Below, in pieces: positions 2,795 to 27,873 of a stretch of 64,000 bases of DNA (positions within the stretch are counted from its first letter, which is position 1; each line of letters opens with the position of its first letter). The notes beneath the pieces were generated by a model. That model was not told the DNA's origin. It did not search any database and saw nothing but the letters and a program-made list of their open reading frames with translations. Source of the DNA: Succiniclasticum ruminis DSM 9236 (GTDB lineage Bacteria; Bacillota; Negativicutes; Acidaminococcales; Acidaminococcaceae); contig NZ_FONL01000001.1 of assembly GCF_900112895.1 (NCBI RefSeq), forward strand, positions 1-64,000. Reading direction: 5' to 3'. Position numbers and translations under genes: made by a program.

Positions 2795-2823
2795 TTGACT
2801 ACATTGCGATTTCTTACTATAAT
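2795..2823 (+). promoter_or_regulatory. Sigma-A promoter of the nagB operon
   Basis: TTGACT and TATAAT are separated by exactly 17 bases. Transcription should begin near 2830, giving a leader of about 320 nt that carries the glmS-type ribozyme. The leader before the cleavage site holds two further hairpins: GGAACC/GGTTCC (2862-2913) and GAATCTC/GAGATTC (2921-2956). Confidence 0.85.
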
Positions 2824-2960
2824 TAGTAGTGGTTTGTATGTTACCATTCAACATATAGTTTTGGAACCATTGCAGTGTTTCTGACAGAATCATTGCCTGA
2901 CCAGGTTCCTTAACAGTAAATGGAATCTCTGACCGGGGAGGATAAGCAGGAGATTCTATA

Positions 2961-3088
2961 GCGCCAGGCCCTGAACGGGTGACGAGGAATGGCAGTTGTC
3001 GAAAGACTCGGCGGATGCTGCCACGGCGTACAGTGCGTCGTGAAAGGGAAAGCAAAAAGCGGAATCAAAACCGTAACAGAGGTTCCCT
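2961..3088 (+). promoter_or_regulatory. glmS ribozyme: glmS ribozyme (glucosamine-6-phosphate-responsive self-cleaving leader)
   Basis: The conserved core is readable in order. The cleavage context A|GCGCCAGG is at 2960/2961. TGACGAGGA follows at about 2980. P2.1-like arms GGCAG and CTGCC flank the hallmark stretch TCGAAAGACTCGGCGGATG. A P3-like hairpin (ACGGCG...CGTCGT) comes next, then a P4-like stem GGGAA (3046-3050) with TTCCC (3083-3087) enclosing CGG/CCG. In known members glucosamine-6-phosphate is the cofactor for 5' self-cleavage, which leads to mRNA decay. Here the element lies 60 bases before nagB, not glmS. Base pairing was judged by eye. Confidence 0.93.
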
Positions 3089-3148
3089 CATCACTGACAG
3101 AAGTTACTAAATTATTAAACCGTAAAAGGACAAAAGGAGAATGAAATA

Positions 3149-3952
3149 ATGAGAGTCGTTATTCAGGATAATTATGAAAAAATGTGCCTCTGGGCCGCTA
3201 ACTATATCGCAAAACGCATCAAAGAACACAACGCCGGTCCCGAAAAGGACCGCCCGTTTGTACTGGGTCTGCCCACCGGTTCTTCCCCCATCGGCGTGTA
3301 CAGGGAACTGGCCCGCATGAACAAGGCCGGAGAGCTGAGCTTTGCCAATGTGGTGACTTTCAACATGGACGAATATCTGGGCCTGCCCCACGAACATGAC
3401 CAGTCTTACTGGTACTTCATGCACGACAATTTCTTTAACCACCTGGTGGACATGAAACCGGAGAACATCAACATCCTCAACGGTATGACCACCGACCCGG
3501 TGAAAGAATGCGCGGATTACGAAGCCAAGATTGCTTCCTACGGCGGTATCGACCTGTTCATGGGCGGCATCGGCGTGGACGGTCACATCGCTTTCAATGA
3601 GCCTTTCACCAGCCTGGCTTCCCGTACCGGTCTGCGGAATCTGACCACGGACACCCGTATCGTCAACTCCCGTTTCTTCGGCAACGATCCGGAAAAGGTT
3701 CCGTCCCTGGCTCTGTCTGTCGGTGTTGGCACCGTTACGGATTCCAAAGAGGTGCTGATCCTGATCAACGGCCATAACAAAGCCAGAGCCCTGGCCGCTA
3801 CCGTAGAAGGCAGTATGTCCCACAAATGGACCTGCAGCGCCCTGCAGATGCACAACGGCGCCATCATCGCCTGCGATGAAGCAGCCTGCGGCGAATTGAC
3901 TGTAGATACCTACAAATATTTCCTGGATATCGAAAAGAAGGAGAGATTGTAA
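3149..3952 (+). CDS. nagB: Glucosamine-6-phosphate deaminase
   Basis: The enzyme interconverts glucosamine-6-phosphate and fructose-6-phosphate plus ammonia. At 267 residues it matches the usual length of the hexameric family. Visible signatures are the phosphate-binding LGLPTGSSP (about residue 40), the catalytic-acid segment FNMDEYLGL (about 70) and [14 protein letters not shown] (about 135). The start has AAAGGAGA 8 bases upstream. It is first in an operon with a beta-helix acyltransferase and glmM, which are biosynthetic amino-sugar genes, and it follows a glmS-type ribozyme. That context suggests the reverse, aminating direction rather than only catabolism; this is inference. No nagA or GlcNAc transporter is adjacent. 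Confidence 0.95.
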
Positions 3953-3955
3953 TTC

Positions 3956-4618
3956 ATGTATACCATTACCGATCTGTATGATCTGGATCATACCCTGGCT
4001 GCCGATTATCTGAAAGGCTTCACCTATCCCTGGGAAGCCCTGAAAGGCATCAAGGAACTGATCCTGAAGCTGGGTCCCACTCTGGGCGCTGATTATGAAG
4101 AGGTAAAGCCCCAGGTCTGGGTGCACAAAACCGCAACCGTCTTCCCTACCGCTTACCTGGGCGCGCCCTGCATCATCGGGCCCAACACGGAAGTCCGTCA
4201 CGGTGCTTTTATCCGTGGTACCGCGTTAGTCGGTGCGGACTGCGTAGTGGGCAACTCCGTGGAATTGAAAAATGTAATTTTATTTGATCACGTACAGACT
4301 CCCCATTACAATTATGTCGGCGACAGCATCCTGGGCTATTACAGCCACATGGGCGCCGGCAGCATAACCAGTAACGTAAAGGCAGATAAAAAGCTTGTTA
4401 TCGTCCACAACGGGACGGAACAGATTGAAACCGGCATCAAAAAGTTCGGTGCCATGCTGGGTGATCATGTGGAAGTTGGCTGCAATGCGGTTATGAATCC
4501 GGGCACGGTCATCGGCCGGAACAGCAATGTCTATCCCACCTCCTGTGTGAGAGGCGTTGTACCTGCTGATTCCATCTGGAAGAACAACGGGGAAATCATC
4601 CATAAGGGGGAAATGTAA
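3956..4618 (+). CDS. Left-handed beta-helix acyltransferase, GlmU C-terminal-like
   Basis: The 220-residue protein has an alpha-helical N-terminal stretch of ~60 residues and then hexapeptide-repeat sequence (for example IIGPNTEVRHGAFIRG and HVEVGCNAVMNPGTVIG), typical of trimeric left-handed beta-helix acyltransferases. It resembles proteins often labelled UDP-N-acetylglucosamine pyrophosphorylase in Firmicutes, but no nucleotidyltransferase domain is present (no LAAGxGTRM motif). A glucosamine-1-phosphate N-acetyltransferase role fits its place between nagB (3-base gap) and glmM (1-base gap), although the acceptor is not proven. It carries NVKADKK and HNGTEQIETGIKKFGAMLGD segments like those around the GlmU active site. 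Confidence 0.8.
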   Translation: MYTITDLYDLDHTLAADYLKGFTYPWEALKGIKELILKLGPTLGADYEEVKPQVWVHKTATVFPTAYLGAPCIIGPNTEVRHGAFIRGTALVGADCVVGNSVELKNVILFDHVQTPHYNYVGDSILGYYSHMGAGSITSNVKADKKLVIVHNGTEQIETGIKKFGAMLGDHVEVGCNAVMNPGTVIGRNSNVYPTSCVRGVVPADSIWKNNGEIIHKGEM

Positions 4619-4619
4619 C

Positions 4620-5966
4620 ATGGGTAAATATTTCGGTACAGACGGCTTCCGCGGCGAAGCCAATAAAGACCTGACCTTTGAACATGCGGTAAAAATCGGC
4701 CGTTTCCTGGGCTGGTACTACGGCGCCAGACTGGGCAAAAAGGCCAAAATCGTTATCGGTAAAGATACCCGCCGCAGTTCTTACATGTTTGAATCGGCCC
4801 TGTGCACGGGCCTGGTAGCATCCGGTGCGGATGCCTACATCATGCATGTGACTACTACGCCCTCCGTAGCTTACATCACCCGGGTGGATGATTTTGACTG
4901 CGGTATCATGATTTCCGCCTCCCACAACCCGTTCTATGATAACGGCATCAAACTGCTGAACAGCAACGGCGAAAAGATGGACGAAGAAACCATCCTGAAA
5001 GTGGAAGACTATATTGACGGGAAGCTCGAAGTTCCCATGGCGGAACGTGCCGCCATCGGCCGCACGGTGGATTACGTGGCAGGCCGCAACCGTTACATCG
5101 GTTACCTGATTTCCCTGTCCAAATTCAGCTTCAAAAATGTGAAAGTAGGCCTGGATGTGGCCAACGGCGCTGCCTGGCAGATTGCCAAAGCGGTGTTTGA
5201 CGCCCTGGGAGCCAAAGTATATGTGATCAACAACCAGCCGGACGGCTGCAACATCAACACGGACTGCGGCAGCACCCATATCGAACACCTGCAGAAGTTC
5301 GTAGTGGATAACAAGCTGGACATCGGCTTTGCCTTCGACGGCGACGCAGACCGCTGCCTGTGCGTGGATGAAAAAGGCAACGTAGTCACCGGTGACCACA
5401 CCCTGTACATCTATGGCCTGTACATGAAAGAACGGGGCAAGCTGCTGAACAACAAAGTGGTGACAACCATCATGTCCAACTTCGGTCTGTACAAAGCACT
5501 GGATAAGGTGGGCATCGAATACGAAAAGACCAAAGTCGGCGATAAATATGTATATGAAAACATGGTAAATACCGGCAACCGCATCGGCGGCGAACAGTCC
5601 GGCCACACCATCTTCATCAAATACGCCACTACCGGCGACGGCATCCTCACTTCCCTGAAGCTGATGGAAGTTATGCTGGCCAAAGAAAAGCCCATGAGCG
5701 AACTGGCAGCGCCTGTTGTGTTCTATCCGCAGGTACTGAAGAATGTAAAAGTCAAGAGCAAACCGGATGCCCAGAACGATCCGGACGTACAGGCAGCCGT
5801 TGCCAAAGTGGCAGAAGCTCTTGGAGACACCGGCCGCATCCTGGTACGGGAAAGCGGTACCGAACCGGTCATCCGCGTCATGGTGGAAGCGGAAAGCGAT
5901 GAGGTCTGCGAGAAATACGTGGATGAAGTTATCGAAGTTATTAAAGCCAAAGGACACATTGCGTAA
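4620..5966 (+). CDS. glmM: Phosphoglucosamine mutase
   Basis: This enzyme converts glucosamine-6-phosphate to glucosamine-1-phosphate for UDP-GlcNAc, peptidoglycan and LPS synthesis. The 448-residue protein begins MGKYFGTDGFRGEAN, has the phosphoserine loop ISASHNPFYDNGIK (about residue 100), the metal loop DGDADR (about 240) and the C-terminal phosphate-binding RESGTEPVIRVM. The start at 4620 is preferred over an in-frame upstream ATG because it carries AAGGGGG at the right spacing and lies just after the previous stop. It is last in the nagB operon and is followed by a strong terminator. Its substrate is the ligand of the leader ribozyme. Confidence 0.96.
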   Translation: MGKYFGTDGFRGEANKDLTFEHAVKIGRFLGWYYGARLGKKAKIVIGKDTRRSSYMFESALCTGLVASGADAYIMHVTTTPSVAYITRVDDFDCGIMISASHNPFYDNGIKLLNSNGEKMDEETILKVEDYIDGKLEVPMAERAAIGRTVDYVAGRNRYIGYLISLSKFSFKNVKVGLDVANGAAWQIAKAVFDALGAKVYVINNQPDGCNINTDCGSTHIEHLQKFVVDNKLDIGFAFDGDADRCLCVDEKGNVVTGDHTLYIYGLYMKERGKLLNNKVVTTIMSNFGLYKALDKVGIEYEKTKVGDKYVYENMVNTGNRIGGEQSGHTIFIKYATTGDGILTSLKLMEVMLAKEKPMSELAAPVVFYPQVLKNVKVKSKPDAQNDPDVQAAVAKVAEALGDTGRILVRESGTEPVIRVMVEAESDEVCEKYVDEVIEVIKAKGHIA

Positions 5967-5986: not shown

Positions 5987-6015
5987 GAGGCTGGACAAAA
6001 GTCCAGCCTCTTTTT
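5987..6015. terminator. Bidirectional terminator between glmM and the RND pump
   Basis: GAGGCTGGAC pairs perfectly with GTCCAGCCTC around an AAAA loop. T runs follow on the + strand and A-rich sequence precedes, so it can stop both convergent transcripts. Confidence 0.9.
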
Positions 6016-27542: not shown

Positions 27543-27873
27543 TTACTTCCCCTCCAAACCTGTTATTCAATACCGATACTCCGGGCAGATACTTTTTATA
27601 AGGCCAGGCTTTGCCTGGCACAGGATACCGGAAAACCGGTTCAAGCACCTGCCTGAATAAAAACGCCCCGGCTGACCTGGTTTTCGCCCCCACACCCGCC
27701 TGCTGGAAGGTTCGCTCCTAAGCAACTGCTCCCCACTACTACTCCTCTCGTTATTGACGGCAGGACTTACTTCTAAGCTGCACCGTGCTCACAGTAATCT
27801 TACTGCTTACGTGGATCGTTTCGCCTGCAACTGGCATCGACTTTCAACCACAGACCCGGATTGTTTTTATTCA
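27543..27873 (-). promoter_or_regulatory. Long structured 5' leader of the amino-acid importer, class unknown
   Basis: Between a good promoter and the binding-protein start lie about 330 bases without an ORF. Read on the minus strand they contain GTGG...CCAC enclosing GCC/GGC, the hairpin CAGTA-AGAT-TACTG, CCTGC (about 27765) with GCAGG (about 27700), GAGGAGTAGTAGTGGGGAGC, ACCGG-TTTT-CCGGT, and GCCAGGC-AAA-GCCTGGC close to the gene. This looks like a folded regulatory leader. I tried lysine, glycine, SAM, cobalamin, T-box and SRP-like consensus motifs and none fits well. Confidence 0.5.

Follow-up and report, generated by a model that had tools for sequence, protein, structure and literature searches.

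The glmS ribozyme, a standard example of a switch for a single gene and a target for drugs, normally limits GlmS. In the window, the 64,000-nucleotide stretch of the Succiniclasticum ruminis DSM 9236 genome analysed here, an element of this type stands instead before nagB, the gene for glucosamine-6-phosphate deaminase/isomerase. This raises the questions of whether the element is a true ribozyme, what the genes behind it make, and in which direction NagB works. Our analyses point to a true glmS ribozyme whose place is unusual but recurrent, where it is predicted to control an operon for UDP-GlcNAc.

The element before nagB is a glmS ribozyme

The ribozyme and two of its pairings lie at these window positions:

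2949 to 3098, plus strand: glmS ribozyme (RF00234), by covariance match, predicted cleavage between A2960 and G2961
3031 to 3096, plus strand: P3.1 pseudoknot strands CAGTG (3031-3035) and CACTG (3092-3096), p about 0.08 in the window, weak alone
3045 to 3088, plus strand: P4 outer helix, AGGGAA (3045-3050) with TTCCCT (3083-3088), both sides changed in 5 of 5 pairs and 91.3% of cells paired

With cmscan, RF00234 matches over its full length (1-167) at 61.9 bits (gathering score 37, E 7.7e-12). No second match turned up in the genome of 2.54 Mb. A covariance model built from 26 glmS-linked ribozymes only, all from the same GTDB family as the window genome and hereafter called R1, also detects the element (33.4 bits, E 5.5e-10). 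A sequence-only reading of this DNA had recognized a glmS ribozyme core at 2961, with cleavage at A2960/G2961, a hallmark string and a P4-like GGGAA/TTCCC pairing, and had named a covariance search as the check. That search scores over threshold, and both the string and the helix are present.

All 46 nagB-operon ribozymes compared start with AGCGCC, and the core GCGCC..GACGAGG..TCGGCGG was parsed in every one of them; the first G of GACGAGG is what we take to be the general base G40. The A preceding the cut is invariant in the 26 aligned glmS-linked rows of the family and in the 8 nagB-linked rows of the same genus, which agrees with the cleavage position first proposed, while a separate tally of A at -1 is true by construction, its sites having been located by AGCGC. 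Helix cells are paired in 85.4% of cases versus 71.1% after shuffling, and double-changed cells number 180 versus 60.2, a value that none of 500 shuffles reached and that exceeds the slid controls (at most 49); the alignment, fitted to the model, has 47 rows and includes a weak second match from L041 (E 0.17). Changes on both sides occur in four of the six ribozyme helices and in neither of the other two. For P3.1, a single-sequence test of too little power gave p <= 0.05 in 6 of 39 sequences.

Some ribozymes of the same genus score lower with Rfam, namely those of G044 (42.9 bits), G056 (43 bits) and G055 (35.6 bits, below the gathering score), which would fit a functionless relic or a chance match. 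The low scores, however, accompany long inserts in the P3 loop around an intact core, and the helix covariation is strong, so that we consider such a reading very improbable. The nagB-leading element is, by core and covariation, a genuine glmS ribozyme, and its response to glucosamine-6-phosphate (GlcN6P) is predicted. The inserts measure roughly 65-80 nt in the ribozymes of L044, L045 and L046 (genomes G044, G056 and G055, respectively).

As far as the available sections of the papers describe them, the ribozymes before glmS in Bacillus subtilis (PMC3997798) and C. difficile (PMC11477304) share family, core, cleavage position and outer P4 helix with the window ribozyme. Unlike them, the window copy heads nagB-actT-glmM, and its inner P4 hairpin is short, as seen in the alignment and the sequences.

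A probable operon for UDP-GlcNAc precursors

The remaining parts of the operon, apart from a leader hairpin treated below, are the following:

2795 to 2823, plus strand: sigma-70-type promoter, TTGACT, 17 nt, TATAAT; its score exceeds all 40 shuffles, also read directly
3134 to 3139, plus strand: AAGGAG, likely ribosome binding site of nagB, read directly
3149 to 3952, plus strand: nagB, glucosamine-6-phosphate deaminase/isomerase, 267 aa (TIGR00502)
3956 to 4618, plus strand: actT, stand-alone left-handed beta-helix hexapeptide acetyltransferase resembling the C-terminal half of GlmU, by profile and sequence matches
4620 to 5966, plus strand: glmM, phosphoglucosamine mutase (TIGR01455, 542.4 bits, cut-off 447.55)
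5987 to 6015, plus strand: stem of terminator type, GAGGCTGGAC / GTCCAGCCTC, with T5 behind it, likely operon end, read directly and unscored

The promoter would start transcription near 2830, which leaves about 131 nt before the cut, and the upstream radical-SAM gene stops at 2723, ahead of the operon promoter. actT and glmM lie close behind nagB on the same strand. The succession of ribozyme, nagB, a beta-helix acyltransferase and glmM had already been read from the sequence, and the TIGR00502, GlmU-C-like and TIGR01455 matches agree with it. NagB scores 367.7 bits against TIGR00502 (cut-off 236.9) and is the sole TIGR00502 match in the genome; its catalytic D, D, H and E, at positions that we take from E. 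coli, are kept in all 81 sequences compared.

ActT, matched once genome-wide at E <= 1e-10, aligns with positions 215-393 of the 393 of TIGR03992 at 144.4 bits, under the whole-protein cut-off of 292.1. Its segment PHYNYVGDS aligns with PHLQYIGDS of a GlmU and contains His-x-x-Tyr, presumably the motif of the GlmU acetyltransferase half. The protein also matches the dual-enzyme structures of archaeal type PDB 5z09 and 2ggo, which we take to be Sulfolobus ST0452. For GlmM, too, the genome gave a single match, at E <= 1e-60. Elsewhere in the window, a raiA RNA, a known conserved RNA, is found at 27663-27864 on the minus strand (190.7 bits, gathering score 101.3, full length).

GlmS is retained and GlmU is shortened

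The window genome carries one intact glmS on another contig (607 aa, 801 bits versus a cut-off of 418; L002 1498-3321, C21), and the whole-genome covariance search gave no RF00234 match at this gene. With an intact, ribozyme-free glmS, NagB has not replaced GlmS in this genome, and the idea that NagB stands in for a missing GlmS was ruled out.

GlmU, in contrast to its bifunctional form, is shortened. The protein (L251 1489-2457, C29) has 322 aa and matches positions 2-318 of the 452 in the profile. Aligned with the full-length GlmU of the same-genus genome G051, it shows 79% identity across 316 residues and then stops; the gene on its 3′ side resembles a ribose-phosphate pyrophosphokinase, named by eye from the sequence. 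The acetyltransferase half has thus been lost in place, and ActT, a relative of that half, is the obvious substitute and would replace it. ActT is like bifunctional GlmU in matching its C-terminal acetyltransferase half, an activity predicted from sequence, and unlike it in that pyrophosphorylase and acetyltransferase are encoded by separate genes in the window genome.

Among 59 genomes of the GTDB family, RF00234 is present in 46 (45 over cut-off), standing before glmS in 38 and before nagB in 8. In the glmS arrangement, glmM lies 5′ of the ribozyme in most, not all, stretches read. A TIGR00502 nagB occurs in nine of the 59 genomes: eight copies are ribozyme-led, all in the window's genus, and the ninth, in G029, is 39% identical and on a different contig. 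Every same-genus genome with a window-type nagB has the ribozyme-led layout (8/8).

Grouped by gene content, three of the 14 genus genomes (G049, G051 and G053) keep glmM-ribozyme-glmS together with a full-length GlmU. Ten of the other 11 have an intact GlmS that scores 801-813 bits, versus 844-847 in those three; the GlmS of G046 is partial. Of these 11, ten have a GlmU match that reaches no further than position 338 of 452, and one has none, although the truncation was read base by base only in the window genome and contig ends may explain some of the others. The nagB operon was seen in 8 of these 11. G047 and G052, with a truncated GlmU match and neither nagB nor ribozyme found, were rejected as counter-examples, as operon remnants lie at their contig ends: G052 has the ActT-GlmM part there, and G047 has a fragment of GlmM, with 93% identity, that begins with base 1 of the contig. 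G046, a 73% complete genome, counts neither for nor against.

The layout recurs in genomes of rumen type

A scan of species genomes seeded with the window NagB, which favours nagB-bearing loci by construction, gave at least 80 loci. By title, those listed come mostly from ruminant-gut bins, Lachnospiraceae, Ruminococcaceae, Oscillospiraceae, Clostridia and Erysipelotrichaceae, with a few Spirochaetales; 'rumen-type' is used here as a label for these NagB-seeded loci from other genomes. Gene positions at relatives' loci were taken from tblastn. R1 finds a ribozyme in 38 of the 80 loci among the matches listed, always on the operon strand and 5′ of the first gene. All except one have E <= 0.001, and the exception, L116 (E 0.19), reaches 53.2 bits with Rfam. 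Rfam at E <= 0.1 found no glmS ribozyme in 7 of the 42 R1-negative NagB loci on which it was run.

The first gene behind the ribozyme in the 38 listed loci is nagB in 30, actT in seven (L099, L107, L112, L130, L138, L145 and L148) and glmM in one (L156). The earlier claim of a glmS ribozyme before nagB instead of glmS thus stands for this locus, but the ribozyme is not tied to nagB in particular, and the layout reaches beyond this lineage into rumen-type genomes outside the family. Titles, abstract openings and selected passages of the literature, a scope that leaves the main survey outside, contained no glmS ribozyme before nagB.

At the level of genomes, RF00234 was found in 35 of the 50 rumen-type genomes searched (34 over cut-off), with 36 matches in total. 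Thirty-five of these lie at the nagB operon, 30 being tied to nagB loci by an identical 90-120-nt piece and five by coordinates (L104, L110, L114, L142 and L151); the remaining one lies directly before the glmS of G078. This genome (L206 / L283) has two glmS ribozymes, one before nagB and one before glmS, and in L148 and L156 glmS follows further along the same ribozyme-led gene run. Both arrangements suggest the same feedback on the two enzymes.

The eight listed loci led by actT or glmM could mean that the ribozyme serves these two essential genes, with nagB a passenger in first place, and the truncated GlmU of the window genome, which makes ActT look needed, points the same way. Ten of the 38 ribozyme loci, however, have no actT match within the available stretch (L096, L113, L115, L116, L119, L123, L131, L132, L142 and L156); nagB adjoins the ribozyme in nine of them, seven of which are also without a GlmM match (all but L113 and L142). 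We therefore regard a passenger nagB as improbable. Two further observations concern copy and carrier: G063 (contigs C4, C10 and C13) has two actT and two glmM matches, and no NagB in plasmid records exceeds 64.3% identity.

The unit was most likely exchanged with rumen Firmicutes

The window operon and the family's glmM-ribozyme-glmS set share the GTDB family of their hosts, the ribozyme family and the pathway. Their proteins differ: the window GlmM is 41-45% identical to that of the family's glmS-type loci, versus 50-91% (median 86) for 46 rumen-type loci, and the GlmS of the window genome is 49-53% identical to that of the same glmS-type loci. ActT is 61-88% identical to 38 rumen-type loci, and NagB 69-94% to 80 rumen-type loci among the matches listed. 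The three rumen-type GlmS proteins nearest to that of the window genome are 78.6, 71.4 and 70.9% identical (L176, L179 and L177), whereas the other 27 of 30 and those of its own family are 47-58% identical. The ribozyme-free glmS of the window genome is likely a replacement gene, given its 78.6% identity to one rumen-type GlmS and only about 52% to those of its family.

The ribozymes differ as well. Position 5 and its presumed P2.2 partner, taken to be the ribozyme's 5-53 pair, are A and A in all 26 of the family's glmS-linked ribozymes that were aligned (out of 30 loci); unlike these, the window type has C at 5 and G opposite, as do all 30 rumen-type loci checked and all 8 same-genus nagB-linked ribozymes. 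The 5-53 pair is described as poorly conserved but important for rate in the available part of PMC7125110. A local descent of the nagB ribozyme from the family's glmS ribozyme was considered and rejected, with the position-5 pair and the protein identities against it. Since NagB, ActT and GlmM are all nearest to rumen-type loci and the ribozyme carries the C/G pair, the unit was most likely exchanged as a whole with rumen Firmicutes, as judged from identities and this pair rather than from a tree. The local glmM-glmS set was probably replaced, not rearranged.

Role of the operon and direction of NagB

With the acetyltransferase half of GlmU lost and the operon's GlmM the sole copy found, the operon looks biosynthetic. 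A shut-off by GlcN6P would be sensible only if the operon supplies the amino sugar, a condition that the first reading had attached to the feedback. The gene context (GlmM and an acetyltransferase behind nagB, half of GlmU lost, a sole GlmM) supports it. The ribozyme most likely provides GlcN6P feedback on UDP-GlcNAc supply.

The proposed course is as follows. When GlcN6P is plentiful, the ribozyme would cut the leader at A2960/G2961 and the operon mRNA would be degraded, presumably through RNase J; when it is short, the mRNA would persist and NagB, GlmM and ActT would be made. NagB would then convert fructose-6-phosphate and NH3 to GlcN6P, GlmM would convert GlcN6P to GlcN-1-P, ActT would acetylate this to GlcNAc-1-P, and the shortened GlmU encoded elsewhere would finish UDP-GlcNAc. 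GlmS would be a second, ribozyme-free and glutamine-dependent entry, much as GDH stands beside GS-GOGAT. One counterpoint is that placing GlmM and ActT under a GlcN6P shut-off would also slow the use of GlcN6P.

An aminating NagB, which would give an ammonia-dependent entry in addition to GlmS, is plausible, and we put it at about even odds. Rumen ammonia is usually millimolar, which would favour amination. The positions of E. coli R158 and K160, presumably the GlcNAc6P allosteric site, which is not common to all NagBs, hold G and R in the window protein, versus R and K in E. coli. The altered residues also occur in 40 of 42 NagB relatives without a ribozyme match, and across the 81 sequences the residues of NagB give no division between relatives with a linked ribozyme and the rest. 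Nor is an aminating NagB obligatory, since GlmS is intact here and matched in 28 of the 35 ribozyme-bearing rumen-type genomes (39 of all 50). In the other 7 of 35, GlmS was not found at E <= 1e-60; most of the records are metagenome bins, and we base no conclusion on this absence. GlmU is full length in four of the 35, partial in eight and without a match (E <= 1e-20) in 23, although in these metagenome bins absence is weak evidence.

NagB may instead deaminate as usual, the operon balancing GlcN6P between glycolysis and the wall, with the ribozyme's effect on nagB secondary or tuned by other hexose phosphates. The accessible text of one study states that NagB acts mostly in the deaminating direction and, for the Akkermansia enzyme, with Km values of 41 mM NH4 and 5.5 mM Fru6P, judges physiological amination unlikely (PMC5902328). 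The intact GlmS of the window genome speaks for this reading too, as do NagA matches in that genome and in 12 of 14 genus members, which would allow for a GlcNAc-breakdown route. The sign of the feedback would be wrong, however, as high GlcN6P would shut off its own disposal; moreover, nagB occurs together with glmM and actT, and G078 carries one ribozyme before glmS and another before nagB. NagA was matched in 14 of the 35 ribozyme-bearing rumen-type genomes and not in the other 21, but these absences may be misses, since the search also missed its Bacillus subtilis control, a species that possesses a NagA according to the part available of PMC6171935. Overall, we consider ordinary deamination rather unlikely. 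The best explanation overall is, in our estimate, a horizontally spread UDP-GlcNAc operon, nagB-actT-glmM, under a glmS ribozyme and working along the course proposed here, a reading that we hold to be somewhat more probable than its opposite.

A covarying hairpin with a Shine-Dalgarno-like motif precedes the cut

Directly 5′ of the cleavage site, the leader contains two further features:

2920 to 2959, plus strand: P0 hairpin, arms 2920-2930 and 2949-2959 with A2960 unpaired, by predicted fold and covariation
2935 to 2941, plus strand: GGGGAGG, candidate STAB-SD enclosed by the P0 arms, with a predicted pairing of its two final G to CC at 2933-2934

P0 is, by its pattern of change across relatives, a covarying hairpin outside the known ribozyme that ends 1 nt 5′ of the cleavage site. 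The window hairpin folds at -12.9 kcal/mol (z -2.65), with 3 of 200 shuffles equally stable. Its consensus is roughly TAAAAYAGnCTC for the 5′ arm and GRGnCTRTT for the 3′ arm, which ends at -2 and leaves A-1 free. An anchored-helix test gave p <= 0.05 in 25 of 46 sequences, or 18 of 39 once seven near-identical same-genus rows were removed, versus none of 30 glmS-linked family ribozymes. Arms placed by the A-run pair at 6.79 of 9 positions, whereas 2000 swaps gave a mean of 5.79 and a maximum of 6.41 (39 rows).

For covariation 38 rows were used, without L156 and the seven rows from the same genus and with L128 anchored by hand. Here 78.6% of cells are paired versus 67.0% after shuffling, and 57 are double-changed versus 25.9, both unmatched in 500 shuffles. 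The covariation score is 0.409 versus 0.232 (0/500), with slid controls at or below 0.173. Pairs changed on both sides, one of five measures, number 7 versus 5.8 and were equalled in 103 of 500 shuffles.

GGAGG occurs at -60 to -8 in 29 of 39 leaders, where 3.3 are expected, and at -120 to -60 in none of 39 (1.3 expected); AAGGAG is present in 16 of the 39 nagB-operon leaders. The last GGAG or AGGA begins 10-24 nt 5′ of the cut in 38 of 39, with none in L124, and the predicted folds pair, on average, half of the GGAGG-like motif. Start codons after the motif are depleted (10 of 38 versus 19.2 expected), and initiation is possible in those 10. Among the leaders of glmS-linked family ribozymes (n = 30, L008-L037), 8 contain GGAGG where 2.9 would be expected, and 7 contain AAGGAG where 0.6 would be, a weaker form of the motif that leaves room for a more general stabiliser. 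In G078 the motif is found in the nagB-linked leader (L115), and none was seen in the stretch read of the glmS-linked leader.

P0 with its GGAGG resembles a STAB-SD, an mRNA stabiliser that cleavage would detach. According to the sections available, RNase J1 is blocked by a 30S subunit bound at a STAB-SD (PMC4113751), and the same nuclease degrades the cleaved glmS mRNA (PMC3997798); together these lead us to propose that the ribozyme detaches a stabiliser. Uncut mRNA would probably be further protected by P0 and its motif, through 30S binding that blocks a 5′ exonuclease, and cleavage would remove the protector. Like the cry3A STAB-SD of Bacillus thuringiensis, as far as the accessible text of PMC4113751 goes, the motif is a leader Shine-Dalgarno sequence that, judged by sequence, serves no start codon. 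Unlike cry3A, it sits within a covarying hairpin, and a self-cleavage site follows 10-24 nt after its start, which would allow its removal; 30S binding is putative here. P0 with this motif directly 5′ also sets the window type apart from the glmS ribozymes before glmS. Titles, abstract openings and selected passages of the literature gave no STAB-SD before a glmS ribozyme, and in the text available of PMC3997798 'glmS ribozyme' and 'STAB-SD' occur together with the latter in the reference list only. As far as these searches reach, the P0 hairpin is new.

A protein site or a folding aid would fit the P0 sequence data almost as well. P0 would then bind a protein such as one of CsrA type, or free the cleavage strand during folding. 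GGA motifs do occur in the hairpin, and a GGA in a loop is what we take to be a CsrA-like site, a possible identity of the motif; the helix also ends at -2 with A-1 mostly free. Against a protein site, the conserved motif exceeds a bare GGA, with AAGGAG in 16 and GGAGG in 29 of the 39 leaders. We hold a protein site or folding aid to be possible but doubtful. The fullest form of our own proposal, to which we attach equally tentative belief, is that of a mobile module of ruminant-gut Firmicutes in which NagB would act as an ammonia-driven GlcN6P synthase beside GlmS, its mRNA guarded by a detachable P0/STAB-SD protector that the ribozyme cuts off when GlcN6P is ample.

Implications

The glmS ribozyme would here govern a whole alternative pathway, and would do so in distant gut bacteria. 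Its location offers independent evidence that the supposedly catabolic NagB is wired biosynthetically. The direction of NagB, an old question, can now be tested in an ammonia-rich niche where amination could matter. P0 before the cut provides a concrete new explanation of how cleavage may destabilise the mRNA; if it is true, the switch works by removal of a stabiliser as well as by creation of a 5′-OH end.
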